Positions 3,676 to 23,041 of a stretch of DNA of 64,000 nt are shown piece after piece (the first letter of the stretch is position 1; every line of letters begins with the position of its first letter). Source of the stretch: Nesterenkonia populi. GTDB taxonomy: Bacteria > Actinomycetota > Actinomycetes > Actinomycetales > Micrococcaceae. The notes under the pieces are model-generated. The model saw only the letters and a program-made list of their open reading frames with translations, made no database searches and was not told where the DNA came from. The position numbers and the translations under genes were made by a program. Where the stretch lies: contig NZ_VOIL01000001.1 of NCBI RefSeq assembly GCF_007994735.1, forward strand, positions 2,356,001 to 2,420,000, written 5' to 3'.

Positions 3676-3686
3676 TGCTGTGCCGA

Positions 3687-5351
3687 CTAGTCTTCGACGG
3701 AGAGGCGGGCGAAGTCCACAGTCGCCGGCGCGGCGATGCTGTGAGCCTCCTCGACCCCGGCGATCCAGGGCTGGAACACCATGAAGTCGTTGACCCAGGC
3801 GAAGGTCGGCGAGCAGCCGTAGTCGTAGGCGGCGTCGCCTGCCTCGTTGAAGGTCTCGGCGTCGTCGGTGACCAGGGCCTCGTCGAGCAGCTCGTCGATC
3901 TCGTCGTCGTAGCACTGCAGGTGGTTCAGGCCGCCGGCCTCGCCCCAGAAGATGTGACCGTGCATGTAGGGGTTGTTGGAGTCAGGCCAGGTGCCCGAGT
4001 AGACGAAGGCGTCCGGGGATGAGGTGGGGTCCTCGTAGAAGTCGCTGAAGACCTCGGAGGACTGATGGGAGGTCACCGTGGCGTTGAGCCCCAGGCCCTG
4101 CAGGTCTGCGGCGACCAGGTTGGCGATCTGCTCCGAGTCGGTGGAGGCGGACATGTGTCCGATGGTGATGTCCTCACCCTCGTTCTCAGCGGCCCATTCA
4201 GCCAGGGCGTCCGAGTCGTGGACCAGGTCGCGGTCCTCGTAGTCGGGGAGGCCGCCCTGCGGGAAGTGACCGGTGGCGGGGTCCGCGCTGTGGCCGATGA
4301 TGTTCTCCACGTATGAGTTCCAGTCGAGCCCCTCGAAGAGGGTGACACGATCCTCGGCGTCGGCCAGGATGTCCCGGTTGGGGTTCATCAGGAAGTTCGA
4401 GAGCTGGTAGGAGGGCAGCGCGAAGGCCGAGAGCGCCTCGTCCTCGACGTAGTCCTCACGGGATGAGGAGGGGACGCCCTGCAGCAGCGCGTGCAGGTCG
4501 CCCTGCTCCAGCTCCAGCTGCATCGCAGAGATCTCGGTGTAGACCGGCAGGTCGATGGTGTGGAAGTCGGGGTCTGCCAGGTCCTCGTCCCAGTAGTCCT
4601 CGAAGGCTTCCATGGTGTACCCGTCTCCGACGGAGGCCTCGGTGAGCGTGTAGGGCCCGGTGCCGGCGGAGTTCTCAGCGATGTAGTCCTCAGCGTTGTC
4701 GTCGCTGTGCTCCTCGATGATGTCCGGGCTGATCATCCGGGGCCCGTAGGGGGAGGCGAGGTAGTCCATGAATGCTGAGTTGGACTCCTCCAGCACCAGG
4801 GTGACGGTGTAGTCGTCCTCAACCTGCACGTCCACGCCGTCCACCATGTACGAGGGGCCTGCGTCGACGTCGAGGCGGCGTTGGAAGGAGGCTTCGACAG
4901 CCTCAGCGTTGAACTCGGCGCCGTCGTGGAAGGTCACTCCCTCGCGCAGCTGGAGGGTGAACTCGGTGAAGTCGTCGTTGATCTCCCAGTCCTCGGCCAG
5001 CAGCGGGACCACGTTGGCCTCATCGTGGTTGCCGGGCTCGTAGCGGACGAGGCCCTCGTAGAGGTTGGTGGTCAGCGCCAGGCCGTTGCCGGAGTAGTAG
5101 ACGTCCGGGTCCGGCGGCTGACCGATGTCATCAAGCACTCCCAGCCGCAGCACGCCGTCGTCGGGGGCGTCCTGGGAGGCCTGGTCGGTGTCGCCCTCCG
5201 CGGACTCCGGGTCCTCATCGGTCTCGCCGCCGTTGCCGCAGGCCGACAGGGTCAGCGCGGCGATGGACAGCACGCTGAGAGCCTTGACCGTGCCGGGCAG
5301 GCGTCGTCGCAGCGGGTTGTCATCCTCAGGGGTGAACGATGCGTTCTTCAT
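3687..5351 (-). CDS. Extracellular solute-binding lipoprotein, family 5 (DppA/OppA/NikA-like)
   Basis: Binding protein of the peptide/nickel-class importer. The signal peptide ends in a lipobox LTLSAC near residue 40, so the protein is anchored to the outer leaflet by a lipidated Cys. An acidic linker rich in D and E follows, then the SBP_bac_5 fold (NLYEGLVRYEPG, WEINDDFTEFTLQLREGVTFHDG, AGTGPYTL). I place the start at ATG 5351, preceded by AAGGAAGAG, rather than at the upstream in-frame GTG (5366). The strongly acidic sequence fits a salt-tolerant organism. It lies 60 bp downstream of the ureohydrolase and probably captures that enzyme's substrate or a metal complex. The sequence alone does not decide between them. 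Confidence 0.88.
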   Translation of the reverse strand: MKNASFTPEDDNPLRRRLPGTVKALSVLSIAALTLSACGNGGETDEDPESAEGDTDQASQDAPDDGVLRLGVLDDIGQPPDPDVYYSGNGLALTTNLYEGLVRYEPGNHDEANVVPLLAEDWEINDDFTEFTLQLREGVTFHDGAEFNAEAVEASFQRRLDVDAGPSYMVDGVDVQVEDDYTVTLVLEESNSAFMDYLASPYGPRMISPDIIEEHSDDNAEDYIAENSAGTGPYTLTEASVGDGYTMEAFEDYWDEDLADPDFHTIDLPVYTEISAMQLELEQGDLHALLQGVPSSSREDYVEDEALSAFALPSYQLSNFLMNPNRDILADAEDRVTLFEGLDWNSYVENIIGHSADPATGHFPQGGLPDYEDRDLVHDSDALAEWAAENEGEDITIGHMSASTDSEQIANLVAADLQGLGLNATVTSHQSSEVFSDFYEDPTSSPDAFVYSGTWPDSNNPYMHGHIFWGEAGGLNHLQCYDDEIDELLDEALVTDDAETFNEAGDAAYDYGCSPTFAWVNDFMVFQPWIAGVEEAHSIAAPATVDFARLSVED

Positions 5352-5410
5352 GGTCTCTTCCTTCACAGGTGCGGTGATGCGGATGCTTCAAACGGTGATC
5401 GTCGTCGCGC

Positions 5411-6679
5411 TCATCGGGCGCGGAAGGTGCGGTTCCTCTCCTTTCCCTGGCTGTCCAGCCCCTCGCCGAGCGCGTAGGGATGCATATAGTTCGGCTCGGT
5501 GAGCCCCTGCCGGCGCATCGCGATGCCGGTCATGGCCTCGCGGATGGCGCGGTTGGCCAGCAGCGCGGTGATCTCTCCCTTGTCGTCATACGGCGGGGAG
5601 ACCTCCACCACGTCCATTCCGACGACGCCGACCTCCGCGCAGAGCCGGCGCACCGCGGTGAGGACGTCCGTGCTGGTCAGCCCGCCGGGCTCAGGGGTTC
5701 CGGTGCCGGGGGCAAAGGCGGGGTCGGCGACGTCGATGTCCAGGGAGAGGTAGAGGTGGTCGGCCTGGTCGAGGGCCTCATCCACTGCCCGCTCAAGCAC
5801 CTCGTAGAAGCCGCGGTGGTTGATCTCGGCCATGAAGTGGGTGCGCATGTCCTGCTCGTCCATCCAGTCGAGCGTCTCCTGGTCCGGCCAGTAGCCGCGC
5901 AGCCCCACCTGCACAAAGTTCTTGCCGGGCACGGCGCCGGACTCGATGAGCTTGCGCATCGGAGTGCCGTGCGAGGCCAGGGAGCCGGGCATGTCGGTGC
6001 CGGTGTCCGCGTGGGCGTCGAAGTGGACGATGCCGACCTTGCCGTAGCCGTAGTGGTCGGCCACCGCAGTGGCTGCGGGCCAGGTGATGGCGTGGTCGCC
6101 GCCCATGATGATCGGGATCGTCCCCGAGTCGACGATGGTTCCGACGAACTTCCGGATCTCCTCAAAGGTGCCCGGAGTGTTGCCCAGCATGATGGGCGCG
6201 TCCCCGTAGTCGCACATCTTCAGCTCAGCGAAGGCGTCCACGTGGGTGTCCAGGGAGAAGTGCGGACGCGGCCCGTAGCCGCCCTTGTAGTCGCAGGAGC
6301 GGATGACCATCGGACCATGGTTGGTGCCGCTGCGGCCGCCCGCGGTGGAGTCCCAGGGCACCCCGCAGACGGCGACGTCGACCTCCGCGGCCTTCAGGTC
6401 CTCCGGGGTCAGGGCCACAGGGAGCTTGGCGAAGGTCTGGATGCCGGCGAAGCCGCCCTCGCGCTGACGGTTGACGTGCAGCAGTCCGGGCTTGCGGTCC
6501 ACGTTGTAGCTGTCCACGGCGCCGTGGCCCTCGAGCCCCTCGCCGAGGCGGCGAGGCTGCTCCCAGAACCCCTCGGGCCAGACGTCGTGATGGTGGTCGT
6601 GGCTGTGGTCGTCTCCCACGGGCGGGGGCCTCCATATCGTGCGGTGATTCCGGCTGGACGCCGGAGTGCTGTTGGACAT
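5411..6679 (-). CDS. Ureohydrolase (agmatinase/guanidinobutyrase/guanidinase family)
   Basis: Binuclear-metal hydrolase that splits a guanidino group to release urea. The metal-ligand motifs are intact: GGDHAITW (His), HFDAHADTGTD (Asp, His, Asp) and LSLDIDVADPAFAPGTGTPE (two Asp). At 422 residues it is about 100 longer than typical agmatinases. The extra N-terminal part has a His-rich tract (DDHSHDHHHD, about residues 23-32) and a WPEGFWEQPRR segment. Long N-terminal extensions occur in the nickel-dependent guanidine hydrolase group, but I cannot assign the substrate. An imperfect 20-bp palindrome (6691-6710) lies 12 bp upstream of the ATG, and no clear ribosome-binding site is visible. It heads the operon with the binding protein, MFS, ATPase and permease. 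Confidence 0.88.
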   Translation of the reverse strand: MSNSTPASSRNHRTIWRPPPVGDDHSHDHHHDVWPEGFWEQPRRLGEGLEGHGAVDSYNVDRKPGLLHVNRQREGGFAGIQTFAKLPVALTPEDLKAAEVDVAVCGVPWDSTAGGRSGTNHGPMVIRSCDYKGGYGPRPHFSLDTHVDAFAELKMCDYGDAPIMLGNTPGTFEEIRKFVGTIVDSGTIPIIMGGDHAITWPAATAVADHYGYGKVGIVHFDAHADTGTDMPGSLASHGTPMRKLIESGAVPGKNFVQVGLRGYWPDQETLDWMDEQDMRTHFMAEINHRGFYEVLERAVDEALDQADHLYLSLDIDVADPAFAPGTGTPEPGGLTSTDVLTAVRRLCAEVGVVGMDVVEVSPPYDDKGEITALLANRAIREAMTGIAMRRQGLTEPNYMHPYALGEGLDSQGKERNRTFRAR

Positions 6680-6690
6680 TAAGACTGAGC

Positions 6691-6710
6691 TTGGCGAAAC
6701 GTTTCGTCAA
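6691..6710. promoter_or_regulatory. LacI-type operator, copy 1 (ureohydrolase promoter)
   Basis: TTGGCGAAACGTTTCGTCAA, an inverted repeat with one mismatched pair, 12 bp upstream of the ureohydrolase ATG. The inner 18 bases are identical to the copy at 13010-13027. Read toward the gene, the distal half contains TTGACG, a good -35 hexamer, so repressor binding would occlude the polymerase. The CG-centred palindrome is the usual architecture of LacI-family sites. Confidence 0.8.
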
Positions 6711-6738
6711 TGGCTTTCACAGGATGTTTACAAGGCTT

Positions 6739-8070
6739 TTACAGGGCGGCTTCAGCGTCACGTCGTCGTAACCTGTCCTCCTCATAGCGCTGCCCGAGAC
6801 GGCGTCGCCGTGCAGGCGCGGTGACCGCCAGGAGCACGGCGGCGAGCAGGCAGACCCCGCCCGCGCCGATCCAGAGCGCCTGGTGGCCGAAGCCGTCGAG
6901 CACCGCCCCGCCGAGGATGGGACCCAGCACCATCGCGATCGAGTGGTTCAGGGAGTACACACCCTGGTACCGGCCGCGCTGGGCATGGTCCGCCAGGTCG
7001 GCGGCCACAGACTGTGCCTGAGGGTGGGAGCCCATCTCCCCCAGCGTCCACACCGCCACCACGGCGAAGTAGAAGAGCAGGGTGGCTGCGGCGGCCTGGA
7101 GGCCGACGCCGAGCCCGGTCACGAGGATCGCCACCACGATCACGGCGTCGCGGCCGTACCGGTTCAGCCATTTGGCAGTGGGGATCTGCAGGGCGCACAG
7201 CAGCAGGCCGTTGAGGGTCAGGAGGTACCCGTAGGCGGCTGAGGAGAAGCCCTGGTCCGTCATCACCAGCGGCAGGGTGGTCATCGACTGCACGTAGACG
7301 ATCGAGTACAGCAGCATCACGCACGCGAAGGTCATGAAGACCCCGTCGGTGAGCACGCTGAGGATGCTGCCCCCGCCCCGCTGGGTGATCGGCGGCGATG
7401 ACTGAATCGATTCGGCAAGGTTGTTGGCCGGCGCACGGCGCCGGAGAAGGCGACGACGCCGCAGGGCGCGGGCCGGGGCGCGGGATTCCGGAACCTTGGC
7501 GATGACGATGCCGGTGGCGATGAGCAGCAGCACCGCCTGGCCGAAGAACACCAGGACGAACGTGCGGTCGGCCATGAACCCGGCAATGAGCGGACCGATG
7601 GCGTACCCCAGGTTCACGGCCCAGAAGTTGTAGTTGTAGGCGGTGCGGCGGTGCTTGGGCTCGACCATGTCGCCGACCATCGTCACCATCACCGGCTGGG
7701 CGGCGCCGTTGAACAGCCCGTAGACGAAGAGCAGGCTGCAGATCAGCAGCGCCCCCTCAGCGAAGGGGATGATCACCACCGTGGCGGCTGAGAGCAGCAG
7801 GCTGCCCAGCAGGGTGCGCTTGCGTCCGAGTCTGTCGGCGAGGACCCCGCCGGTCATCGCCGAGACCACCACCCCCAGCCCGTACCCGGAGACCACCAGA
7901 CCCGCAGTGGAGGCCGAGAGCCCGACGTCGCGGGTCAGGAAGATGGTCATGAACGGGACCACGAAACGGCCCACCCAGATCACCAGCTCAGCGAACCACA
8001 GCCACCAGTAGGCGGCGGGGAGGTCCTTCAGCCTGGTGTGCTGGACCTCATGAGCGGGGGGCTTTCCCAC
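6739..8070 (-). CDS. MFS transporter, paralogue of the MFS at 2332-3675
   Basis: A 443-residue, 12-span major facilitator. It matches the other MFS of this region in the N-terminus (LKDLPAAYWWLWFAELVIWVGRFVVPFMTIFL against LRDLPGPFWWLWLARL...) and in GGVLADRLGRK and YNYNFWAVNLGYAIGPLIAGFMAD, so the two arose by duplication. I start it at GTG 8070, which has GAGGAG 7 bp upstream. The open frame continues to a TTG inside the operator palindrome at 8118-8135, which is regulatory rather than coding. It lies directly downstream of the LacI gene but has its own operator. Substrate unknown; a guanidino compound or a metal chelate would fit the context. Confidence 0.85.
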   Translation of the reverse strand: MGKPPAHEVQHTRLKDLPAAYWWLWFAELVIWVGRFVVPFMTIFLTRDVGLSASTAGLVVSGYGLGVVVSAMTGGVLADRLGRKRTLLGSLLLSAATVVIIPFAEGALLICSLLFVYGLFNGAAQPVMVTMVGDMVEPKHRRTAYNYNFWAVNLGYAIGPLIAGFMADRTFVLVFFGQAVLLLIATGIVIAKVPESRAPARALRRRRLLRRRAPANNLAESIQSSPPITQRGGGSILSVLTDGVFMTFACVMLLYSIVYVQSMTTLPLVMTDQGFSSAAYGYLLTLNGLLLCALQIPTAKWLNRYGRDAVIVVAILVTGLGVGLQAAAATLLFYFAVVAVWTLGEMGSHPQAQSVAADLADHAQRGRYQGVYSLNHSIAMVLGPILGGAVLDGFGHQALWIGAGGVCLLAAVLLAVTAPARRRRLGQRYEEDRLRRRDAEAAL

Positions 8071-8117
8071 GGGGCGGCTCCTCGAGAGTGCGGGCGATGT
8101 GCCCCTCAGCCTGCGGG

Positions 8118-8135
8118 TGACGAAACGTTTCGTCA
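8118..8135. promoter_or_regulatory. LacI-type operator, copy 2 (MFS promoter)
   Basis: TGACGAAACGTTTCGTCA, a perfect 18-bp palindrome centred on CG, about 48 bp upstream of the MFS GTG start and 39 bp beyond the end of the lacI-type gene. As in copies 1 and 3, a TTGACG hexamer is formed in the direction of transcription, which suggests the operator overlaps the -35 box. Confidence 0.85.
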
Positions 8136-8174
8136 AGCGTGCGCGAGGAACCCTGAAAGGATTTAACGCAGTGT

Positions 8175-9185
8175 TTACCGCGGCAGGCGGACGGACGCCG
8201 GGACCAGAGTGCCGCCAGGGGCTCGGCCGGGGGCGGGGCCGGCCTCCAGCCTCTCGATGAGCCGCTCAGCGCAGGCCGCGCCCAGCGCCCGGGCGGGCAG
8301 GTCCACGTACCCGACCTCCGGCGTCTCCGAGAGCACCCCGTCGACGTCGGGCCCCGCGCTGGCGAAGCGGACCTCCCGCCCCGGCATGGCCTCCAGAAGC
8401 AGCTCCCGGCCGGCCAGCACCCCGTAGGGGCTGGAGACGAGCATGAAGTCGGCATCGCCGTGAGCCTCGAGCAGTTGTCGGATGACCTGGCGAAAACCGT
8501 CCTTGTCGTCCCAGCCGCCGAATCGCACGTACCCGTGGGCAGGCTCCACACCCAGGTCAGCGGCCCAGGCCTCGAAGACCTCACGCAGCAGATTGCCCCA
8601 CCCGGAGTGCTCGTCCGGGGCCACCAGCAGCGGCCGGCTCACACCCCGCTCCTCCTCTGCGGCCAGAAGCTCGTTGACTGCCCTGCGGTGATCCACGGCG
8701 ACGACTTCGCACTCGGGCAGGCCCGGAGGCAGGTGCTCGCCGGCGACGACCGGCAGCGGCGAGAGCATCAGCTCGCGCGCGCGCAGGTCGTCGCTGAGCG
8801 GGTCCACCACAATCACCCCGTCCACTCGGGGAGCGGTGCTGCGGGGCACCTGGGTGTTGGCGGAGAGGATGGAGACGTCATAGTCGTGGCGCTGCCCCAC
8901 CTCCAGCACCCCGGCGAAGAACTGGCGGAAATATGGCTTGTCGAGCTGCTCGGTGGGTGACTGACGGTGCAGGCCGATGGTGCGGGTCCGCCCGGTGCGC
9001 AGCCCGGAGGCGAGCGCGTTGGCCACGTACCCCAGCTCAGAGGCGACGTCGGCGACCTTCCGACGGGTCTCCTCGGTGATCCGTCCGCGGCCGGAGAGGG
9101 CATCCGAGGCGGTTCCCACCGAAACGCCGGCCTGCTCGGCCACGTCCTTCAGCCGCACGCGGCGAGGCTGGCGGGAGTCAGGCAT
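8175..9185 (-). CDS. LacI-family transcriptional regulator
   Basis: A 336-residue regulator. The N-terminal helix-turn-helix is clear (VRLKDVAEQAGVSVGTASDALSG, about residues 10-32), followed by the hinge (GYVANALASGLRTGRTRTIGL) and a periplasmic-binding-protein-like sensor domain. It is the obvious candidate to bind the three palindromes at 6691, 8118 and 13010, which flank it on both sides. No palindrome precedes the gene itself, so autoregulation is not evident. The promoter may give a leaderless transcript: TATAGT lies 7 bp upstream of the ATG. The inducer is unknown but is probably the transported guanidino compound or its product. Confidence 0.92.
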   Translation of the reverse strand: MPDSRQPRRVRLKDVAEQAGVSVGTASDALSGRGRITEETRRKVADVASELGYVANALASGLRTGRTRTIGLHRQSPTEQLDKPYFRQFFAGVLEVGQRHDYDVSILSANTQVPRSTAPRVDGVIVVDPLSDDLRARELMLSPLPVVAGEHLPPGLPECEVVAVDHRRAVNELLAAEEERGVSRPLLVAPDEHSGWGNLLREVFEAWAADLGVEPAHGYVRFGGWDDKDGFRQVIRQLLEAHGDADFMLVSSPYGVLAGRELLLEAMPGREVRFASAGPDVDGVLSETPEVGYVDLPARALGAACAERLIERLEAGPAPGRAPGGTLVPASVRLPR

Positions 9186-9192
9186 GGGGCCA

Positions 9193-9198
9193 ACTATA
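9193..9198 (-). promoter_or_regulatory. -10 box of the lacI-type gene, probably leaderless
   Basis: TATAGT on the minus strand, 7 bp before the ATG at 9185. Transcription would begin at or next to the start codon. No ribosome-binding site is visible between the two, which fits a leaderless mRNA as is common in actinobacteria. Confidence 0.5.
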
Positions 9199-9264
9199 AG
9201 CCGACGCCCAGATCACACGGACGGGCCGTCCACGATCCGGACAGCGCCATTCACGCTGCTCCCT

Positions 9265-10068
9265 TCAGGAGATGGGCTTCACGGCGCGGATGCGGTACTG
9301 CATCTGGACCCGGTGGCCGGGGGCCACACCGTACTCCTGGTCGGCCTCCTTCAGCTCAGGCAGCTCCTCCGCAGTGACCTCGGCGAAGCCTGCGGCGCGG
9401 ATCCGGTCAGCGAAGGCTCCGATCGAGCCGGCCTCGGCCAGCGGCAGGTCCTGCTCCTGGCCCTGGTAGGCCCGGCGGAAGTCCTGCCCGCGCGCGCCGG
9501 AATGATCCTCCTCATGCTCATGGGCGATCAGCCCCTCGGGGAACCAGAGGGAGTCGACGGCGACGAGGACGCCGCCGGGCTTGAGGATGCGCAGCCACTC
9601 GGCGAGCGCCTGGTCCGGCGTCCGCAGCGTCCAGAGAACATAGCGGGCTGTGAGCGCGTCGAAGGCGGCGTCGTCGAACTGGGGCCCGGCGGCGTCGCCG
9701 AATCCGAACATCGGGTTGGCGGAGTAGCCGGAGCGGCGTCGCGCCTCGGCGAGCATCCCTTCTGCGAGGTCGATGCCGGTGACTCTGTGTCCCATCCCGG
9801 CGAGCAGGAAGGCGACGGCGCCGGAGCCGGTGCCGAGGTCCAGCACCTGGGAGGGGGGCTGCGGCAGCCCGGCGCTCCAGATCCCCTCCCAGACGGAGGA
9901 CTCGCCCTCGGCTTCGCGGCGCTGGGCCTGGTATGCCTCGTACTCGCCGGCCCAGCGGGACCAGTACTCGCTGATGCGGCGCTGCTCGTCGCTCTGGGCG
10001 GCCACAGGGTCCCCCTTCTCGGCGGGGGTGAGCTTCACGTCCTTGGCGAGCTCGGATGCGTTCTTCAT
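9265..10068 (-). CDS. Class I SAM-dependent methyltransferase in the metal-type ABC operon
   Basis: A 267-residue Rossmann methyltransferase. Motif I is VLDLGTGSGAVAFLLAGMGHRVTGIDLAEGML (about residues 94-125). The post-motif region has DALTARYVLWTLRTPDQALAEWLRILKPGGVLVAVD, as in small-molecule methyltransferases of the Methyltransf_11/25 type. The ATG overlaps the stop of the ABC ATPase gene by 4 bp, so it is made together with the importer. A methyltransferase tied to a FecCD-type importer suggests that the imported chelate is modified, or that a chelator is made, but no further biosynthetic gene is present. Substrate unknown. Confidence 0.85.
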   Translation of the reverse strand: MKNASELAKDVKLTPAEKGDPVAAQSDEQRRISEYWSRWAGEYEAYQAQRREAEGESSVWEGIWSAGLPQPPSQVLDLGTGSGAVAFLLAGMGHRVTGIDLAEGMLAEARRRSGYSANPMFGFGDAAGPQFDDAAFDALTARYVLWTLRTPDQALAEWLRILKPGGVLVAVDSLWFPEGLIAHEHEEDHSGARGQDFRRAYQGQEQDLPLAEAGSIGAFADRIRAAGFAEVTAEELPELKEADQEYGVAPGHRVQMQYRIRAVKPIS

Positions 10069-10841
10069 AGGGGCGACTCCTTCGGGGTGCGGCGGAAGAG
10101 CAGCTGAGTGGTGGAGTCCTCAGCGGCGACCCGCTCAATGCTGACGTGGTAGACGGGCTCGATGGTGTCTTTGGTGAGGACCTCCTCCGGGCTGCCCTCG
10201 GCGTACAGCCGCCCGTGCGAGAGCAGCACGATGCTGTCGCAGTAGCGGGCGGCGAGGTTGAGGTCGTGCAGCACGACGACGGCGGTGATCCCCAGCTCTC
10301 TGACCAGGTGGAGGACCTGGTGCTGGTAGCTGATGTCGAGGTGGTTGGTGGGCTCGTCCAGCAGGAGGCATTCGGCCTGCTGAGCCAGCGCTCGGGCGAT
10401 CAGCACCCGCTGCTTCTCACCTCCGGAGAGTCCGCTGAACTCGCGGTCGGCCAGATGCAGCAGGCCCACACGTTCCAGAGCGTCGGCGGCGAGGCGCTCG
10501 TCCTCGGGCCCCTGCCGGCTGAACATTCCGAGGTGCGGGGTGCGGCCGAGCAGCACGATGTCCGCCACGGAGAGCATCAGGTCGCTGGGGGGCTCCTGCA
10601 CGACGACGGCGACCCGCTGGGCCAGCCTCTTCGGGGGGATCCGGCGCACGTCCTCGCCGTTGAGCTCGACTCTGCCGGCGTCGGGCGCCAGCGCCCCGTA
10701 GAGGGCGCGCAGCAGGGTGGTCTTCCCACTGCCGTTGGGGCCGGTCAGCCCCACCACCTCGCCCTTTCCGGCCCGCAGGGACACCCCGTGCAGGACGGGC
10801 CTGTCCCTGTAAGAATGGGTGAGCTCGAAAGCCTCCAGCAT
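10065..10841 (-). CDS. ABC transporter ATPase, FecE/FhuC/BtuD type
   Basis: A 258-residue ATP-binding subunit. Walker A is GPNGSGKTT, the Q-loop is VVVQEPP, the signature is LSGGEKQRVLIARA, and Walker B is CLLLDEPTNHLD, all typical of siderophore, haem and cobalamin importers. The ATG shares one base with the stop of the binding-protein gene (TGATG). It works with the permease at 11871-12965 and the lipoprotein at 10841-11854. Family members import ferric siderophores, haem, vitamin B12 or other metal chelates. Confidence 0.93.
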   Translation of the reverse strand: MLEAFELTHSYRDRPVLHGVSLRAGKGEVVGLTGPNGSGKTTLLRALYGALAPDAGRVELNGEDVRRIPPKRLAQRVAVVVQEPPSDLMLSVADIVLLGRTPHLGMFSRQGPEDERLAADALERVGLLHLADREFSGLSGGEKQRVLIARALAQQAECLLLDEPTNHLDISYQHQVLHLVRELGITAVVVLHDLNLAARYCDSIVLLSHGRLYAEGSPEEVLTKDTIEPVYHVSIERVAAEDSTTQLLFRRTPKESPL

Positions 10842-11854
10842 CAGTCCTCCTCCTGCTGGAAGCGTTCTGAGATCTGCTCCAGTCCGTCCACCGCGAGAGG
10901 GGTGGCCGGCTCGGTGAAGTTGAAGAGCTGAGCGTGGATCTCGCCCTCCTGCACCGCTGTCATCGTTTCGGCGCCGGGAATCTCAGTGATGGCCTCCTCC
11001 ACGCCGTCGGCGTCGCCCTGATAGAGGAGGATGAGCACGTCCGGGTCCCGGTCCACGAGCTCTTCGACCTGGACTTCGAAGACGCGCTCGTCGGCGTCGG
11101 CGAAGACGTTCTCGAACCCGGCGGCCTCCAGCTGGGGCTGTGCCATGGAGCGGCTCCCGTAGGCGTAGGAGCTGCCGCCGCCGACGCCCGGGTAGAGGAC
11201 CGCTGCGGTGCGGTCCTCATCCTCAGCGTTCTCGGCGACGGCGTCCGTCCGGGCCTCCAGCTCGGCGATGAGGTCCTCGGCGGCCCCCTGCTCGCCGAAG
11301 ATCTCACCGTAGGTCTCAATCTCCGCGTAGAGCGCGTCGTAGGAGGCCTCAGCAGCGGGCTCGGGGCAGTAGAGCTCCTGGATGAGCATGCTGACCCCGG
11401 CCGGCTCGAGGCCCTCCCGCTCCACACCGTCGGGCTGGCCGAGTGCGAGGTCCGGCTCGTGGGCCACGACCTCCTCCTGGGAGATCATCAGGTGCCCGGA
11501 GGCGTCGAGGTCTTCGGAGAGGGACTCGATCTCCTGGACCTGACGGTGGAGCTCGTCGTCGTAGTACTCCGCGGGGAAGTCTCCGGCGCGGGCGACCACC
11601 CGGTCCATCAGGCCCAGGCTGTCCAGGATGGTCACAGGGGCGGTCTCCAGGAGGATGATCCGTTCGGGCTCCTCGTCAAAGGTGACCTCCTGCCCGCAGT
11701 TCTCGATGGTCAGCGGGTAGTGGTGGCCGGCGCCTTCCCGGTTCTCCTCTTCGGGGGATGCGGCACCGTCACCGCCGCAGGCGGTCAGGGCGAGGACGGC
11801 GATGCCGACGGCGAGCGCTCGGCCTGATCTGGGCCCGGGGAGGGTGCGATGCAT
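10841..11854 (-). CDS. Metal-chelate binding lipoprotein (FecB/BtuF-like)
   Basis: Periplasmic-binding lipoprotein of the TroA/FecB fold, 337 residues from ATG 11854. This start has GAGAGGA 7 bp upstream and is preferred to an upstream in-frame start at 11887 that would run into the permease gene. The lipobox is LALTACGG. Then come YPLTIENCGQEVTFDEEPERIILLE, the classic first strand of this family, and a typical VQVEELVDRDPDVLILL segment. The mature part is acidic. It delivers ligand to the FecCD-type permease encoded just upstream, with which it overlaps by 11 codons when the longer start is used. Confidence 0.9.
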   Translation of the reverse strand: MHRTLPGPRSGRALAVGIAVLALTACGGDGAASPEEENREGAGHHYPLTIENCGQEVTFDEEPERIILLETAPVTILDSLGLMDRVVARAGDFPAEYYDDELHRQVQEIESLSEDLDASGHLMISQEEVVAHEPDLALGQPDGVEREGLEPAGVSMLIQELYCPEPAAEASYDALYAEIETYGEIFGEQGAAEDLIAELEARTDAVAENAEDEDRTAAVLYPGVGGGSSYAYGSRSMAQPQLEAAGFENVFADADERVFEVQVEELVDRDPDVLILLYQGDADGVEEAITEIPGAETMTAVQEGEIHAQLFNFTEPATPLAVDGLEQISERFQQEED

Positions 11855-11870
11855 GAAGGGTCCTCTCAGC

Positions 11871-12965
11871 TCACAGCGTGCGCGCATACATGCGGCGGAT
11901 CAGGATCAGCAGGAAGGGGGCGCCCACCAGGGCGGTGATGATGCCGATCGGCAGCTCGCGGGGCTGCATGAGCACCCGGGCCCCTGCGTCGGCCCAGATC
12001 AGCAGGATCGCGCCCAGCAGCGCCACCACCGGGATGAGACGGCCGTGGGCTGCTCCGACCAGGCGGCGCCCGAGGTGCGGGACCACCAGCCCGACGAATC
12101 CGACGGCGCCGGCGGCCGCGACCACTGCACCGGTGCAGAGTGAGACCACGGTGAGCAGCTGCACTCGGGCCGCCACCGGAGGGACCCCCAGGGCCCGGGC
12201 GGTCTCGTCCCCGATGGACAGCGCATCCAGCCGACGGGACCACAGGACGAGGAGCGCGGTGCTGGTCAGGGCAACGGCGAGGACCAGCACCAGGAAGGCG
12301 TCCCAGCGGGCCAGCGCGAGGGATCCCAGCAGCCAGAACATCACTGAGCGGGAGCCTTCAGCGTTGTCTGAGGCGAAGATGAGGAAGCTGGTGGCGGCTG
12401 AGAGCGCGTAGCCGACGGCGATGCCGGCCAGCAGCAGGCGGATCGAGGTGACCTGCCCGTTGGCCCGGGCGAGGAAGAACACCAGCAGGGAGGCGCCCAA
12501 CGCGCCGACGAACGCGCTCAGGGGAAGAGCGTACTGCCCTGCTCCGGCGGCGAAGCCGAAGAGGATGGAGGCCGCCGCCCCGGTGGAGGCGCCCCCTGAG
12601 ATTCCGAGGATGTAGGGGTCGGCGAGGATGTTGCGGACCATGCCCTGCAGAGCCGCGCCGCAGATCGCCAGGCCAGCGCCGACCGCCAGGCCCAGCAGCA
12701 CCCGGGGCACACGCATCTCCCAGACGATGGAGCGCTCGGAGTCGGTCCAGGTCTGCTCCACGGGAAGGCCGAGGCTGTGCCCGATGATGCCCAGCACGGT
12801 GGAGGGGGCGATGCTCACCGGACCGATGCCCACGCACAGGGCGACGGTGATGCAGAGGAAGGCTGCGAGCCCGACTGTCCAGAGAGCGGCCCGGCGGCGC
12901 GCGCCGCTGGCGAGGCCCTCGTTCGACGGGGCCCCGAGACTCTGAGATTCGGCTTTCTGCAACAT
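11871..12965 (-). CDS. ABC permease, FecCD/BtuC type
   Basis: A 364-residue, about 10-span permease. Family motifs: RVPRVLLGLAVGAGLAICGAALQGMVRNILADPYILGISGGAS, LLLAGIAV, and the coupling-helix region PHLGRRLVGAAHGRLIPVVALLGAILL with ELPIGIITALVGAPFLLILIRR at the end. It heads the operon permease, lipoprotein, ATPase, methyltransferase. Its upstream region carries a LacI-type operator (13010-13027) identical to that of the ureohydrolase, and a second inverted repeat spanning its start codon (12958-12972). The ligand is not determined; iron siderophore, cobalamin and nickel/cobalt chelate are all possible. Confidence 0.93.
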   Translation of the reverse strand: MLQKAESQSLGAPSNEGLASGARRRAALWTVGLAAFLCITVALCVGIGPVSIAPSTVLGIIGHSLGLPVEQTWTDSERSIVWEMRVPRVLLGLAVGAGLAICGAALQGMVRNILADPYILGISGGASTGAAASILFGFAAGAGQYALPLSAFVGALGASLLVFFLARANGQVTSIRLLLAGIAVGYALSAATSFLIFASDNAEGSRSVMFWLLGSLALARWDAFLVLVLAVALTSTALLVLWSRRLDALSIGDETARALGVPPVAARVQLLTVVSLCTGAVVAAAGAVGFVGLVVPHLGRRLVGAAHGRLIPVVALLGAILLIWADAGARVLMQPRELPIGIITALVGAPFLLILIRRMYARTL

Positions 12966-12972
12966 TGTTGCA
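12958..12972. promoter_or_regulatory. Inverted repeat spanning the permease start codon (Nur/Fur-like box)
   Basis: TGCAA-CATTG-TTGCA is a perfect 7+1+7 inverted repeat centred on 12965, the first base of the permease ATG. From memory, the actinobacterial nickel repressor Nur binds TTGCAA-N5-TTGCAA, and this site agrees in 10 of 12 arm positions. It may instead be a site for another dimeric regulator or a chance repeat. Confidence 0.4.
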
Positions 12973-13009
12973 TCAAGCCTAAGGCCATCCGATTACGGCA
13001 CTGTTTCAC

Positions 13010-13027
13010 TGGCGAAACGTTTCGTCA
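13010..13027. promoter_or_regulatory. LacI-type operator, copy 3 (metal-type ABC operon)
   Basis: TGGCGAAACGTTTCGTCA, identical over 18 bases to the core of copy 1 before the ureohydrolase. It lies 44 bp upstream of the FecCD-type permease ATG, and TTGACG is again formed in the direction of that gene. This is the evidence that the chelate importer belongs to the same regulon as the ureohydrolase and the MFS. Confidence 0.8.
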
Positions 13028-13029
13028 AG

Positions 13030-13164
13030 GCTTCCGGCTTCTGGCTGGTGAGCCGGTATCTGAACCTGGACACCAAGCAGACCTTCGCCTCCTGGACCGT
13101 GATGCAGACCCTGCTGGCGGGCACAGCGTTCGCCGTGATTCTGCCGGTCTCCCTCGTCCTCTGA
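13030..13164 (+). pseudogene. 3' relic of a GntP-family gluconate permease
   Basis: The plus strand encodes, up to TGA 13164, about 44 residues that match the C-terminus of GntP-type permeases: SGFWLVSRYLNLDTKQTF, then ASWTVMQTLLAGTAFAVILPVSLVL. The intact GntP at 27207-28568 ends in the same pattern (NDSFFWVVSQL...). Homology begins just after the LacI-type operator, and there is no start or body of the gene. It therefore looks like the remaining tail of a gene replaced by the minus-strand cluster. Confidence 0.6.
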
Positions 13165-13252: not shown

Positions 13253-14305
13253 ATGGGTGCATCGATGAAGGTCAAAGGTTCTGCAGCAGTGATCACCGGG
13301 GCATCGTCAGGCATCGGCCGGGCCGCAGCACTGCGGTTCGCCAAGGCGGGTGCCGATGTCGTTCTCGCCGCCCGGCGGGAAGAGGCGCTGAAAGAGGTCG
13401 CCGACGAATGCCGTGAGCATGGCGTGCGTGCCCTGGTGGTCCCCCTGGACGTCACCGATGCCGAGGCCGTCCAGGCGCTGGGCGACCATGCGGCGGAAGC
13501 CTTCGGGCGCATCGACATCTGGGTCAACAACGCCGCCGTCTCACTGTTCGGCTCACTGAGCAGCACCCCCGCAGAGGATTTCCGCCGGGTCCTGGACGTC
13601 AACATCATGGGCTATGTGAACGGCGCCCGCGCCGCGCTGAAGCACTTCCGTCCCCAAAGGCGAGGCGTGCTCATCAATGTCTCTTCGGTGGTGGGCGAGG
13701 TCCCGCAGCCCTTCACAGCCTCCTACTCCATCTCCAAGGCCGGCATCAACGCGCTCTCGGCCAGTATCCGCTCCGAGCTGCTCCTGGAGAAGCTCGAGGG
13801 CGTCCATGTAGTCACCGTGCTGCCCCCGACCGTTGACACTCCCCTGTTCGGCCAGGTGGCCAACTACACAGGACGCCGCGTAGTGCCCATGCCTCCGGTC
13901 TACTCGCCCCAGCGCGTGGCCGACACCATCCTGATGGGCGCCAAGAAGCCCCGGCATGAGATGCCCGTCGGCCAGGCGGCCCGTCAGATGATCGCGCAGC
14001 ACCGGGCGTCCCCCGCCACGACGGAGAAGCTGATGGCAGCGCAGGTGGACAAAAAGCACCTCTCCCGCAAGGAGCCCTCCCCCGCAACCAAGGGCAACCT
14101 CTACGAATCCGCGCCGCTCGAGACTGCTGAAGTCCAGGGCGGCTGGGGCGGCCGCAGGCGACAGGCCAAACGGCGTGCCCTGACCGGAGCGGTCCTGGCC
14201 GGAGGCACAGTGGTCGCCGTGCCCGTGGCGGCGGCGGCCGGCAAGGCGGCTGCGGCCGCGCTGAGAGCCGCGTCCCTCAGCGGCAGTCGGAGCAGAGGCC
14301 GGTGA
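13253..14305 (+). CDS. Short-chain dehydrogenase/reductase with C-terminal extension
   Basis: NAD(P)-dependent oxidoreductase of the classical SDR family. The cofactor loop is TGASSGIG (about residue 16), the structural motif is NNAAVS, and the catalytic residues are Ser in INVSSV and Tyr/Lys in SYSISKAG. Residues 1-250 form the Rossmann domain. The tail of about 100 residues is basic and ends with a hydrophobic Ala/Val segment (ALTGAVLAGGTVVAVPVAAAAGKAAAAAL), a possible membrane anchor found in some actinobacterial SDRs. ATG 13253 and ATG 13265 are both possible starts. The 3' end overlaps the convergent Fur-family gene by 29 bp. Substrate unknown. Confidence 0.88.
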   Translation: MGASMKVKGSAAVITGASSGIGRAAALRFAKAGADVVLAARREEALKEVADECREHGVRALVVPLDVTDAEAVQALGDHAAEAFGRIDIWVNNAAVSLFGSLSSTPAEDFRRVLDVNIMGYVNGARAALKHFRPQRRGVLINVSSVVGEVPQPFTASYSISKAGINALSASIRSELLLEKLEGVHVVTVLPPTVDTPLFGQVANYTGRRVVPMPPVYSPQRVADTILMGAKKPRHEMPVGQAARQMIAQHRASPATTEKLMAAQVDKKHLSRKEPSPATKGNLYESAPLETAEVQGGWGGRRRQAKRRALTGAVLAGGTVVAVPVAAAAGKAAAAALRAASLSGSRSRGR

Positions 14306-14729
14306 GGGTGGACTGGTGGAGGTCCAGCTGAAAGCCGGCTGCGGCGTCCACCGCCTCGACGGCGGTGGCGAAGCTCTCCGGAGGCAGGGCGACGACGGCT
14401 TGGCAGCCGCGGCAGTGCCCGTGCAGGTGGGTTGAGGTGGCCAGGTGGTACGACGCAGCCTCCCCGGCCAGCTGCCGGACAGCCACAATGCCCAGCTCAG
14501 CGAAGCGCTCCAACGCCCGGTAGGCCGTGGTGCGGTGGACGCCCCGGTCGGTCAGCCGCTCAGCGACCTCATCGGCGGAGAGATGGCGATGATGCTCCTC
14601 CAGCACCTGGAGGACAGCCCGCCGGGCAGCGGTGGCCCGCTCCCCCTGACGCCGCAGCTCCTCCAGGGCAGCCTCGACCAGCTCACCCCCCTCCCCGCGG
14701 TGGTGATGATGGTGGGCGTGCCCGCTCAT
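14277..14729 (-). CDS. Fur-family metalloregulator (Zur-like)
   Basis: A 150-residue repressor with winged-helix DNA-binding domain (RATAARRAVLQVLEEHHRHLSADEVAERL, RTTAYRALERF) and a dimerization/metal domain carrying the HLHGHCRGCQ motif and a second CxxC at LCSDC, the structural zinc site of Zur/Fur proteins. The N-terminus has a His run (GHAHHHHHRG). The ATG at 14729 overlaps the stop of the TetR gene by 4 bp, so it is the last gene of the urea-transport transcript. Of Fur paralogues it most resembles Zur. Nickel sensing (Nur) is conceivable from the neighbourhood, but the C4 zinc site argues for a Zur-like protein. Confidence 0.85.
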   Translation of the reverse strand: MSGHAHHHHHRGEGGELVEAALEELRRQGERATAARRAVLQVLEEHHRHLSADEVAERLTDRGVHRTTAYRALERFAELGIVAVRQLAGEAASYHLATSTHLHGHCRGCQAVVALPPESFATAVEAVDAAAGFQLDLHQSTLTGLCSDCR

Positions 14730-15350: not shown

Positions 15351-15953
15351 TCACTGCCCAGCGCCCGCCAGCGCCTGCTGAGGCCAGGTTCCCTCCGGAG
15401 CGGCGGCGAGCACCTGCCCAGCCGCGGTGCGGAAGCTGGCCGCAGCGTCTTCGGCGCTCATTCCGAAGGCCGCCCGGCAGCGGGCCCAGAACTGGGCGGA
15501 CGCGAAGTAGCACAGCGCCGAGGCGGTGCGGCGCCGGTCCCGACCGTTGAGCCCCGGCGCTGACTCCTCGAGCAGCGCTCCCACCGCCGCGGAGAAGAAG
15601 GATCCCGCTCCGCCGGCCGGGGATTCCGCACCCACCGGGGAGAGGGAGGCTGAGCGAGCAAGGATGACCGCCTCAGCCGGGTGCTGCGCGAAGGCTGCGA
15701 AGCGTGCCGCCACCGCGTCGTAGAGTCCCTCCCAGCTGGTGAACGCGGCCGGGGCGAAGAGGCGCGACTCCAGGTCGAGCGCCACCCGGACCAGCAGGTG
15801 CGCGCGGGTGGGGAAGTGCCGGTAGACGGTGCGCTCGGAGACGCCGACGGCGGAGCCGAGGTCCTTGTAGGTGATCTCGTCGAACCCGATCCGGCCCAGC
15901 TGGGCCGCGGCGGCGGCGACGATGGCGGATGCAGTGTCAGCGGCGTCGCTCAT
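15351..15953 (-). CDS. TetR-family transcriptional regulator, paralogue of the next gene
   Basis: A 200-residue TetR protein. Helix-turn-helix: ITYKDLGSAVGVSERTVYRHFPTRAHLLV. The first 17 bp of the gene overlap the end of the NCS1 permease gene, so it is read from the same message as urtABCDE. The ligand domain is Ala-rich with no recognisable subfamily. AmtR, the nitrogen regulator of related actinobacteria, is also a TetR, but I see no specific AmtR hallmark. Confidence 0.88.
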   Translation of the reverse strand: MSDAADTASAIVAAAAAQLGRIGFDEITYKDLGSAVGVSERTVYRHFPTRAHLLVRVALDLESRLFAPAAFTSWEGLYDAVAARFAAFAQHPAEAVILARSASLSPVGAESPAGGAGSFFSAAVGALLEESAPGLNGRDRRRTASALCYFASAQFWARCRAAFGMSAEDAAASFRTAAGQVLAAAPEGTWPQQALAGAGQ

Positions 15954-17601
15954 CGGTCTCCGTCTCGTTCTCCGGGGGCAGCAGGTACTGTTCGGAGCCG
16001 GCCAGGGTCAGTGCCAGGGATGAGACGTACTGAGTCTCCCCCAGCGGTCCGCGCTCAGCGGAGGCCAGCATGTCGGGGCGCTCAAAAGTGTAGCCGGTCA
16101 CATGGCAGCGCAGCCTCTCGGCCGACGGGTTTCCGTCCTCGTCATACATGCGCAGGCCGATGCCGTCGTGGCGGCGCCGCAGATAGTACTTCCCGCGGGT
16201 GGCCAAAGCTGTCAGCGGGGTCAGCAGCGCCGCAGTGCCGATGGCGATCAGAATCGCGAAGGGCTGCACCGCCGCGCCGAAGAGCCCGAAGAACGCGGCC
16301 AGGGACAGCACCGAGGCGGCGCTGACGGACACGAGGCCCACGGGGTTCCAGCTGTGCAGCATCCCGCGGCGGAACTCCGGCCGCATCGGGGAGATCCCCA
16401 GCAGGTACTTGTTGAAGACGATGTCCGCGGAGATGGTCACCAGCCAGGACATCACGAAGTTCGCGTACAGGCTGAGCACGAAGTACATCAGCCCGAAGAC
16501 GTCCATCATCATCAGGCAGTAGGCGATCACCAGATTGAACAGCACGAACACGCTGCGGCCCGGGTACCGGCGGGTCACCCGGGTGTAGGCGTTGAGCCAG
16601 GCCAGGGAGCCGGAATATCCGTTGGTGACGTTGATCTTCACCTGGGCGATCACGATCAGGGTCAGCGCCAGGGTGACGGCGAGCCAGTCGGGCATCAGCT
16701 GCTCATAGATCCCGAGGAACTGGACCACCGGCTCCGCGGCCCGCTCCCCCAGGCCCGGGTCGATCTTCACCAGCACGTAGACCGCCAGCAGCACGCCGAG
16801 CACCTGCTTGGTCCCGGAGAAGATCACCCACCCAGGGCCTGCCAGCAGCATCGAGGCCCACCAGACCCGCCGGTTGGCGCGGGTGCGCGGAGGCATGAAC
16901 CGGATGTAGTCCAGCTGCTCAGCCAGCTGCGGGGTCAGCGCGAAGCAGACGGCCGCGGAGGCCACCACCGCCCCGATCTCCAGCTGCCCGGACCCCTCGC
17001 CCTCGAACGTCAGGAAGGCCTCCACGACCGCCGGCTCGGTCAGCGCCACCCAGATCAGAGGCAGCAGCGCCAGCACCAGCCACAGCGGGGTCGTCCAGAA
17101 CTGCAGCCGCTCCAGGGCCCGCATCCCGTAGATGACGATGGGGATGACCACCACGGTGGAGAGCAGGTAGCCCAGCGGCAGCGGGATGCCGACCCCCGCA
17201 TAGAGCCCCTGCGCCATGATCGCGCCCTCGAGGGCGAAGAAGATGCAGGTGAACCCTCCGAAGATCACCGTGGTGATCACAGAGCCGTGATACCCGAAGC
17301 CGGAGCCGCGGGTGAGCAGGTCCACATCCAGGTTGAACCGGGCTGCGTAGTAGGCGATCGGCAGCCCGACGGCGAAGATGATCGCCGAGGCCAGCGCGAT
17401 GCCGGCCACCGCGTTCAGGGTGCCGTGCTCCAGGCCGACGGTCGCCCCCATGGAGAAGTCGGCGAGGAACGCCATCGACCCCAAAGCGGCACCGCCGACC
17501 GCGGGCGCGGACCAGCGCCGGAAGGTGCGCGGAACATAGCGGAAGGCGTAGTCCTCAAGACTGTCCTCCGCCGCTCGTCGTGCACGCGAGGCGTCCGGCA
17601 T
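15937..17601 (-). CDS. NCS1-family permease (purine/cytosine/allantoin type)
   Basis: A 554-residue, about 12-span transporter of the nucleobase:cation symporter-1 family. It begins with a soluble segment (DYAFRYVPRTFRRWS), then GGAALGSMAFLADFSMGATVGLEHGTLNAV, and GSGFGYHGSVITTVIFGGFTCIFFALEGAIMAQGL typical of the group. After the last span it has a C-terminal tail of about 75 residues (YYLRRRHDGIGLRMYDEDG...) absent from short cytosine permeases. It starts 13 bp after urtE and is followed by overlapping regulators. The context suggests uptake of a nitrogen compound such as a ureide, purine or pyrimidine, and the specificity is unproven. Confidence 0.85.
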   Translation of the reverse strand: MPDASRARRAAEDSLEDYAFRYVPRTFRRWSAPAVGGAALGSMAFLADFSMGATVGLEHGTLNAVAGIALASAIIFAVGLPIAYYAARFNLDVDLLTRGSGFGYHGSVITTVIFGGFTCIFFALEGAIMAQGLYAGVGIPLPLGYLLSTVVVIPIVIYGMRALERLQFWTTPLWLVLALLPLIWVALTEPAVVEAFLTFEGEGSGQLEIGAVVASAAVCFALTPQLAEQLDYIRFMPPRTRANRRVWWASMLLAGPGWVIFSGTKQVLGVLLAVYVLVKIDPGLGERAAEPVVQFLGIYEQLMPDWLAVTLALTLIVIAQVKINVTNGYSGSLAWLNAYTRVTRRYPGRSVFVLFNLVIAYCLMMMDVFGLMYFVLSLYANFVMSWLVTISADIVFNKYLLGISPMRPEFRRGMLHSWNPVGLVSVSAASVLSLAAFFGLFGAAVQPFAILIAIGTAALLTPLTALATRGKYYLRRRHDGIGLRMYDEDGNPSAERLRCHVTGYTFERPDMLASAERGPLGETQYVSSLALTLAGSEQYLLPPENETETDERRR

Positions 17602-17614
17602 GCAATGAATCGTC

Positions 17615-18313
17615 TCAGATGGCCATCGCGTCGCGGACCTCGTCCTGGGCCGCGCTTCCGCCTTCGCCGGTGCTGGTGACCTGCCCGGAGGCGAGCACGA
17701 AGTACTTGGACGCGCTGGCCAGCGCGAAGCCGACGTGCTGGGCGGCGAGCAGCACGGAGAGCCCGTCCTCGGCGGCGAGCCCCGAGATGGTCCGCTCGAT
17801 CTCTGAGACCACTGAGGGCTGGATCCCTTCAGTGGGCTCGTCGAGGATGAGCATGCTGGGCTCGGTGATCAGGGCGCGGGCGATGGCGAGCTGCTGGCGC
17901 TGCCCGCCGGAGAGCAGCCCGGCCTTCTTGTCGATCACCTCGTTGAGCGCGGGGAACCGCTCACGGGCGTGGTCCACCAGCTTCTTCCGCTTGGACCGCG
18001 GTTTGCCGTCGGCGACCACTTGGAGGTTCTCCAGGGTGCTCAGCTGCTCGAAGGACTGCTGCCCCTGGGGCACGTAGGCCATCCCCATCCTGACCCGTTT
18101 GTTGGGGGCGGTGCGGGTGATGTCCTGACCGTTGAAGGTGATGGTGCCGGCGGTGGGCCGGATGATCCCGACGACGGTGCGCAGCAGGGTGGTCTTGCCG
18201 GCTCCGTTGTGGCCCAGGACTGCGGCGATGCCGTTCTCGGCGCTGGTCAGGCTGACCCCGCCGAGCACCCGGGTGCGCTCGTAGCCGGCCTCTACGTTCT
18301 TCAGCTCCAGCAT
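17615..18313 (-). CDS. urtE: Urea ABC transporter ATPase UrtE
   Basis: A 232-residue LivF-type ATPase. Walker A LGHNGAGKTTLLRTVVG, signature LSGGQRQQLAIARAL and Walker B MLILDEPTEGIQPS; EGIQPS is characteristic of UrtE. The ATG follows the urtD stop directly, with GAGGAGG inside the end of urtD as ribosome-binding site. It pairs with UrtD to power the UrtBC permease for high-affinity urea import. Confidence 0.93.
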   Translation of the reverse strand: MLELKNVEAGYERTRVLGGVSLTSAENGIAAVLGHNGAGKTTLLRTVVGIIRPTAGTITFNGQDITRTAPNKRVRMGMAYVPQGQQSFEQLSTLENLQVVADGKPRSKRKKLVDHARERFPALNEVIDKKAGLLSGGQRQQLAIARALITEPSMLILDEPTEGIQPSVVSEIERTISGLAAEDGLSVLLAAQHVGFALASASKYFVLASGQVTSTGEGGSAAQDEVRDAMAI

Positions 18314-21116: not shown

Positions 21117-21126
21117 GGTCAGGGAG

Positions 21127-22443: not shown

Positions 22444-22712
22444 TGTTGCTCTCCGATCAGTCAAGAATGCGAGTGGTGCGTCAGCAGCTCCGGGAAGGCC
22501 GTGACCCTTCCGCGGGGCTGGCAACAGAGTGCGCCAGTGGCATTACTTTGACGTTGCCCAACTATTTCTTGGATGTAAACGAATATGGGGACGCTGGCGC
22601 CGCTCTTCGCCTCCTGAAAGGGATGCAGGCGCTTTGCGGTGGTTCTCGGAAAATTCCGTGAAACATTCGAATGGCAGGATCGTGACAGCGATACGACACC
22701 GGAAGGACACCT
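22444..22712. promoter_or_regulatory. Divergent urtA / ureA control region
   Basis: A 269-bp intergenic region between urea import and urease genes, more A/T-rich in its middle (about 22540-22600 and 22650-22680) than its surroundings. It must hold promoters in both directions. I looked for GlnR boxes (GTnAC/GAAAC pairs) and AmtR boxes and found only isolated half-sites, so no regulator is assigned. AAGGA precedes the ureA ATG. Confidence 0.5.
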
Positions 22713-23015: not shown

Positions 23016-23041
23016 GACGAGACAAGAGGAAGGCAGACACT

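Follow-up and report, generated by a model that had tools for sequence, protein, structure and literature searches.

Among the described systems closest to the genes considered here are the metformin-hydrolase operons, in which nickel-dependent ureohydrolases are accompanied by a homolog of the nickel transporter HupE and by HypAB and, in Aminobacter, also by urea-transport genes (PMC11399263, available part). In this work we analyzed a 64,000-nt stretch of a Nesterenkonia populi contig (hereafter the window; the genome is 2.55 Mb in size), in which genes for an agmatinase-type ureohydrolase (UreoH), for a transporter of the major facilitator superfamily (MFS) and for a FecCD-type ATP-binding cassette (ABC) importer are preceded by near-identical LacI-type operators. 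A preliminary description of the locus presented the union of chelated metal or cofactor import with guanidino-compound hydrolysis as a combination not known to be described; this was too strong, because a nickel importer beside nickel ureohydrolases and urea genes is already known from the operons just mentioned. From the metformin/dimethylguanidine hydrolases (MefH/DmgH) with their HupE and HypAB, as the available part of that paper presents them, the locus differs in its FecCD importer, the His-rich tail of the enzyme and the LacI control; no HypAB was found among the regulon genes scanned. Metformin hydrolase is moreover a heteromer with the metal ligands in one subunit type only (same source), whereas tandem ureohydrolase copies from relatives of UreoH (five loci, L039–L042 and L048, each with a run that includes two members of one group) keep DAHAD and DID in 10 of 10 cases and GGDH in 9 of 10, the first copy of L039 being the one without it. 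Guanidine hydrolase GdmH (PMC11410670, available part) has an N-terminal extension in common with UreoH, and its motif GTGWPEPGG reads GTGTPEPGG here. From the agmatinases of model TIGR01230, whose cut-off it passes (200.9 bits against 174.3), UreoH differs by its long His-rich N-terminus.

A FecCD-class importer linked to urease is known from Helicobacter, where FecD/CeuE takes up nickel for this enzyme (compare the title of PDB entry 4ls3). The likeness to our locus lies in the importer class and the urease link, and the lineage is different. To our knowledge, the Helicobacter system includes neither a methyltransferase nor a LacI regulator. In Streptomyces coelicolor the Nur regulon comprises sodF and nikABCDE (PMC7055735 and PMC3919588, available parts); what recurs here is a Fur-family protein and a dyad fitting the Nur-box consensus, whereas the operon behind the dyad here is of the FecCD type and has a LacI operator as well. 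The LacI-family regulons of PMC4052901 share with the present one the local regulator of this family; their effectors, in the available part of that paper, are sugars, nucleobases, nucleosides and a protein, and a word search of this text for agmatin-, guanidin-, nickel and urea gave nothing. In the open-access literature, including that part of PMC4052901, we found no description of LacI control of such genes, of a FecCD-type importer among them or of a second metal-type operator.

The operator is an 18-bp palindrome found at three places in the window:

6692–6709, unstranded: LacI-type operator 1, TGGCGAAACGTTTCGTCA on the plus strand, at the candidate -35 box of the ureohydrolase operon
8118–8135, unstranded: LacI-type operator 2, the perfect palindrome TGACGAAACGTTTCGTCA, at the candidate -35 box of the MFS a gene
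13010–13027, unstranded: LacI-type operator 3, TGGCGAAACGTTTCGTCA on the plus strand, upstream of the FecCD operon

Thus, the three near-identical sites of the preliminary description were recovered exactly, with the same sequence before the ureohydrolase and the importer and the perfectly palindromic variant before the second MFS gene. No fourth site was detected in the window at up to three mismatches (shuffled sequences gave a mean of 0.02 matches). The genome-wide search that had been proposed as a check returned only the three operators at 0–1 mismatch, so that the motif is not frequent in the genome. Two further places with three mismatches were revealed elsewhere, against one match for the reversed control pattern, and were kept out of the regulon. 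Among 396 sampled genomes of the order, exact TGRCGAAACGTTTCGYCA was found in the own genome only; this sample contains one other Nesterenkonia genome and does not include N. pannonica, which has exact sites.

All genes of the three units behind these operators lie on the minus strand and are listed here in the order of transcription:

11871–12965, minus: FecCD-type permease (PF01032, 300.9 bits); its listed candidate start overlaps a second dyad, described below
10841–11887, minus: class III substrate-binding protein (Peripla_BP_2) of the importer (Pfam and fold comparison)
10065–10841, minus: ABC ATPase of the FecCD importer (Pfam, NCBIfam)
9265–10068, minus: class I S-adenosylmethionine (SAM) methyltransferase of the importer operon
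8175–9185, minus: LacI-family regulator (PF00356, 51.3 bits, cut-off 27), predicted to bind the three operators; orthologs lie near UreoH relatives
6739–8070, minus: MFS transporter a, with a probable GTG start at 8070
5411–6619, minus: UreoH (Pfam Arginase, 285.7 bits), 402 aa from its best start, GTG at 6619
3687–5366, minus: family-5 substrate-binding protein of the peptide/opine/nickel class (Pfam)
2332–3915, minus: MFS transporter b (open reading frame as listed; the true start is probably near 3604)
560–2335, minus: fused two-domain ABC ATPase of the Opp/Dpp/Nik type, followed by a BPD_transp_1 permease left of the window

Site 3 precedes the first of these genes, site 2 lies between lacI and MFS a, and site 1 between MFS a and the ureohydrolase. 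The permease, the binding protein and the ATPase form one run, as expected for an importer of the FecCD/BtuC type, while models and folds do not tell the possible ligands of the family-5 binding protein apart. The LacI gene does lie among the operator-controlled genes; since it follows the operon behind operator 3 in the same direction, it is likely to be autoregulated. Its putative effector domain of the periplasmic-binding-like kind scores below the cut-off of Peripla_BP_3 (20.7 against 26.5 bits), and most relatives listed carry PF13377.

TTGACG is present in all three operators, as had been stated, and the proposed overlap with a -35 box appears to hold for two of them. The following promoter elements were read by eye:

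6682–6710, minus: candidate promoter TTGACG-N17-CAGTCT of the ureohydrolase operon
8108–8136, minus: candidate promoter TTGACG-N17-CAGGCT of the MFS a gene
12976–12981, minus: predicted -10 candidate TAGGCT of the FecCD operon

Because a -10-like hexamer stands 17 bp after TTGACG at the ureohydrolase and MFS a sites, overlap of the operator with the -35 box is plausible there. At the FecCD site the hexamer at this distance is AACAGT and no -10 box was seen by eye at the 17-bp spacing; the better candidate, TAGGCT, lies 41 bp beyond TTGACG. The corresponding sites of Streptomyces and Rhodococcoides (of the TTGACGAATCGATTCGGCA type) also begin with TTGACG, so the overlap may be conserved in these genera. 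It should be mentioned that an open stretch on the plus strand across operator 3 (12991–13144) resembles by eye the C-terminus of a GntP-type permease (compare 27207–28568); perhaps it is a gene remnant of a rearrangement that created the FecCD promoter region.

The distribution of the site was then compared with that of the regulator in relatives of UreoH (about 60–89% identity; loci L039–L066, the best 28 of 79). The promoter test covered 27 of these loci, L057 being left out as cut inside the gene, and searched 350 bp of upstream sequence, counted from the gene assumed to open the operon, with 300 resamples each; where the operon start is uncertain, this stretch may not be the promoter. LacI orthologs (at least 45% identity) were found near UreoH in nine loci, namely in Cellulosimicrobium, Cellulomonas (two), Krasilnikoviella, Streptomyces (four) and Nesterenkonia pannonica, and a relative at 34% in a Rhodococcoides locus. 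All 10 LacI-bearing loci contain a site with one to five mismatches in the tested stretch (P <= 0.02 each), whereas in all 17 loci without a LacI gene in the fetched stretch the best site has six to nine mismatches (lowest P 0.033, in L058). In N. pannonica all three sites are kept, between lacI and the importer operon, which is reordered and divergent, before MFS a and before UreoH; the counterpart of operator 2 is two mismatches away from the palindrome and that of operator 3 has none. Among seven relatives searched genome-wide at up to two mismatches, N. pannonica has four places, three of them at regulon genes, and two Streptomyces genomes have one place each, at the UreoH promoter. Since the operators are near-unique in the genome and the footprint extends over several genera, the existence of one LacI regulon, as read from these sequences, is well supported. 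In the N. pannonica record (L066) several regulon genes are split over frames, which reflects either sequencing error or decay.

Comparison of the fetched loci showed that UreoH, the family-5 ABC importer and an MFS gene recur together across actinobacteria, and that the FecCD branch is added only in Nesterenkonia. Within this genus a LacI relative (E <= 1e-40) was detected in 2 of 30 genomes and FecCD (E <= 1e-60) in eight, five of which were counted as containing orthologs (the own genome, three at 77–87% identity and N. pannonica). In three Nesterenkonia genomes (G515, G656 and G630) the importer was present and no LacI ortholog was found. It adjoins the same urea-transporter neighborhood as in N. 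populi in two of them, G515 and G656, and urease follows in G515; in G630 the importer operon is located directly behind an agmatinase-family gene whose product is 80% identical to the second such enzyme of N. populi. The neighboring context genes of the window are:

17615–22524, minus: urea ABC transporter (urt) cluster, with UrtA by NCBIfam (528.4 bits, cut-off 492.75), a BPD_transp_2 permease and two ATPases by Pfam, and a second permease by position
22713–27226, plus: urease cluster, with the gamma and alpha subunits and a UreG-type GTPase by Pfam and the other genes by position

The importer methyltransferase was found in 19 of the 396 genomes of the order (E <= 1e-35), and the importer is complete, with four genes, in 16 of the 18 loci outside N. 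populi. The fetched 13–15 kb include urease genes in 5 of these 18 loci and in 4 of the 16 with the full importer (P 6e-8 and 2e-6 under random placement, relatedness being ignored), and such urease-linked loci belong to three of the five other genera. Relatives of UreoH were also revealed near urease genes in two Bifidobacterium loci, in one case together with urt. No member of the NicO or CbiM families was detected in the N. populi genome by searches that gave matches in control genomes; these searches did not extend to HupE/UreJ or to importers of the NikABCDE type. Judged by this gene context, the FecCD permease, binding protein, ATPase and methyltransferase most likely constitute an importer of nickel or a nickel chelate. 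The earlier idea that metal-chelate import and guanidino hydrolysis form one programme is supported in two Nesterenkonia species, and the fetched stretches of the remaining LacI-bearing genera gave no sign of it; for Nesterenkonia it can be sharpened to a probable nickel supply for urease.

Two other features of this neighborhood were noticed. A 554-aa protein encoded at 15937–17601 (minus strand), with no Pfam match at E 1e-5 and no NCBIfam match at E 1e-20, has copies 74–75% identical beside the urt genes of two other Nesterenkonia (L136 and L137). An Rfam 5_ureB_sRNA match (23529–23819, minus strand; 49.3 bits, gathering score 40) lies antisense inside ureC and may merely reflect conservation of the urease gene.

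Besides the LacI operator, the FecCD promoter region contains a second dyad, and a Fur-family gene is located nearby:

12958–12972, unstranded: second dyad, TGCAACAATGTTGCA, a predicted metal-type operator at the FecCD promoter
14277–14729, minus: Fur-family regulator, 150 aa from ATG 14729, with the His-rich start MSGHAHHHHH (PF01475, 58.1 bits, cut-off 23.1)

The core of the dyad, TGCAA-CAATG-TTGCA, fits the published Nur-box consensus tTGCaa-N5-ttGCAA (PMC3919588, available part), with a different outermost base on each side. At up to one mismatch, TGCAACAATGTTGCA has no other place in the genome. The dyad is also found ahead of the importer in G630 and N. pannonica, the latter having an additional one-mismatch copy; G515 has a looser form, and the G656 contig starts at the importer gene. 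As 0.52 matches at one mismatch are expected in the window by chance, the weight rests on this recurrence. Elsewhere, TGCAACANTGTTGCA at up to one mismatch was found in 9 of 30 genus genomes against 7 of 30 for the reversed control, so these single-mismatch matches are likely due to chance. Each of the five Nesterenkonia loci examined has a Fur-family gene no more than about 6 kb from the importer, and the closest PDB relative of the one in G515 is S. coelicolor Nur (3EYY, 69.5 versus 46.5 bits). A second, metal-type control of the FecCD promoter is probable. In another family, with 16 loci, the five genes tested that immediately precede a FecCD operon (in L177, L178, L180, L187 and L191) all code for regulators of the ArsR/MarR-like kind; of two such regulators compared with a metalloregulator model, only that of L178 passed. 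Repeats of the TTGNA...CAA type, seen by eye in several FecCD promoters outside the genus, were rejected as Nur boxes for their different spacing.

UreoH begins with MGDDHSHDHHHD and has the two-metal ligand set GGDH, DAHAD and DID, its ligand columns being invariant in 26 of 26 aligned sequences. His-rich tails are found in its relatives as well (e.g., MSHDHDHDHDHHHD), with at least four and up to 13 histidines in 19 of the 26 rows, which suggests that the tail may store metal at the enzyme. Perhaps it takes over the part that the HypAB chaperones play for metformin hydrolase (PMC11399263, available part). The best PDB matches of UreoH are the guanidine hydrolase GdmH entries 7esr (191 bits) and 9fek (185 bits), in which the threonine of GTGTPEPGG is replaced by tryptophan, taken here as Trp305 of the GdmH paper (available part); UreoH thus lacks this tryptophan, and an Rfam scan detected no guanidine riboswitch. 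TIGR01230 likewise accepts a second ureohydrolase encoded in the genome (238.6 bits), so the agmatinase model does not settle the substrate of UreoH. This second agmatinase-family gene is located left of the window in a plus-strand run (G000:C1:2347206–2354443, L006:11206–18443) convergent to the UreoH operon, together with genes for an NCS1-type permease, an Lrp-type regulator, an aldehyde dehydrogenase, a flavin amine oxidase and a nitrilase-type amidase. This run resembles the arginine 2-monooxygenase route to 4-guanidinobutyrate.

Taken together, these data can be explained as follows. The LacI-family repressor (8175–9185) would keep three promoters off through the 18-bp palindrome, covering the -35 box at two of them, and would release them together in response to an inducer, probably either the guanidino compound taken up or something made from it. 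The first unit would then supply the His-tailed ureohydrolase, the family-5 ABC importer and an MFS transporter, the second MFS a, and the third the FecCD importer with its methyltransferase and probably, at its end, LacI itself. UreoH would release urea, to be split by the neighboring urease, and the FecCD system would most likely bring in chelated nickel for urease and perhaps also for the ureohydrolase. Through the second dyad, metal control would be superimposed, restricting the rise in import to conditions in which substrate is available and metal scarce. As a whole, we consider this explanation, that of a guanidino-induced LacI regulon with FecCD nickel import for urease and added metal control, to be on balance the probable one.

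Several observations weigh against it. A whole-locus scan revealed a 5-mismatch match somewhere in 7 of the 17 LacI-less loci (none at four or fewer), including one 390 bp upstream of UreoH in L064, and some LacI-bearing loci have extra matches in other places. At up to two mismatches genome-wide, Rhodococcoides has four places, only one of them at this locus, C. timonensis has one, elsewhere in the genome, and Krasilnikoviella and Cellulosimicrobium, with more divergent sites of their own, have none. In the fetched stretches of the other genera with this LacI, tblastn detected no FecCD, binding-protein or methyltransferase gene. The FecCD operator does not appear to lie at a convincing -35 box, and no LacI site was found at the urt and urease genes of the window. 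Urease was absent from the fetched stretch in 13 of the 18 methyltransferase loci (12 of the 16 with the full importer), and 7 of 26 UreoH rows have three histidines or fewer in the tail. The fold of the binding protein does not discriminate between binders of siderophores, haem, B12, molybdate and nickel, and the score of the family-5 ATPase exceeds the cut-off for NikD (360.3 versus 318.7 bits), so the family-5 importer could itself be a nickel importer. Finally, the Fur-family protein of the window scores only slightly better against Nur (52.8) than against PerR (48.6), and in our alignment it has Val and Gln at the columns of His70 and His72, taken as the nickel site of Nur; for these two reasons the product of 14277–14729 is designated here as Fur-family and not as Nur.

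Among the alternatives, the regulon may be as described and the FecCD system import another cargo: an iron siderophore, a corrinoid, a cofactor resembling F420, or manganese to serve the ureohydrolase. In NCBIfam the genes come nearest to models of putative subunits of an F420-0 importer (272.6 bits for the ATPase, 276.4 for the permease and 105.8 for the binding protein, all below their cut-offs), followed by BtuC and heme types; the binding-protein fold suits many ligands, and manganese is the commoner ureohydrolase metal (PMC11399263, available part). We regard this as somewhat unlikely, given the repeated location of the importer near urease and urt in several genera, the Nur-box-like dyad at its promoter and the fact that no riboswitch for cobalamin or for another metal reached the gathering score in the window, L135, L136 or L138. 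Nickel might instead enter through the family-5 importer, as a system of the NikABCDE/Cnt type, with UreoH acting on an internal guanidino compound and FecCD serving another need. This would agree with the NikD score of its ATPase and with NikA as the best model of its binding protein (100.9 bits, but against a cut-off of 393); it is unlikely, since the best PDB sequence match of this protein is the peptide-type binder 8upi, binders of peptides, opines and nickel are intermixed in its structure ranking, and the importer is paired with UreoH in loci where tblastn revealed no urease.

It can also be supposed that the cargo of FecCD is the guanidino substrate, for instance a metal chelator with a guanidino group, from which UreoH would free the metal, the MFS proteins exporting or recycling the chelator. 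The common operator, the two MFS genes and the methyltransferase of the regulon would fit such a cycle; nevertheless, UreoH of other genera recurs with the family-5 importer, not with FecCD, and Nesterenkonia FecCD operons exist without this LacI, which makes the proposal quite improbable. Least of all do we expect the palindromes to serve another regulator, their placement having no common meaning: LacI-family operators do share AAACGTTT-like cores, but across genera the site goes with the LacI gene (present in 10 of 10 loci that have this gene and in 0 of 17 that do not), and the three sites accompany their genes in N. pannonica.

If the favored explanation of a guanidino-induced regulon with nickel import for urease is carried further, the locus could be a case of substrate-gated nickel acquisition. 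A guanidino-sensing LacI would open both a nickel-storing, His-tailed ureohydrolase and a hitherto unassigned class of nickel importer, composed of FecCD, a class III binding protein, an ATPase and a methyltransferase possibly finishing a metallophore; its promoter would integrate LacI and Fur-type signals, and the class would supply urease in several genera of the order. We put this extended proposal forward tentatively, as one that may well turn out wrong. The regulon offers a testable answer to how nickel is supplied in an actinobacterium that has urease and lacks importers of the NicO or CbiM families. It would likewise be a case of a catabolic regulator, and not a metal sensor alone, governing metal uptake, and a LacI regulon outside sugars and nucleosides, and it draws attention to a group of ureohydrolases with a His-rich tail whose substrate and metal are directly measurable.

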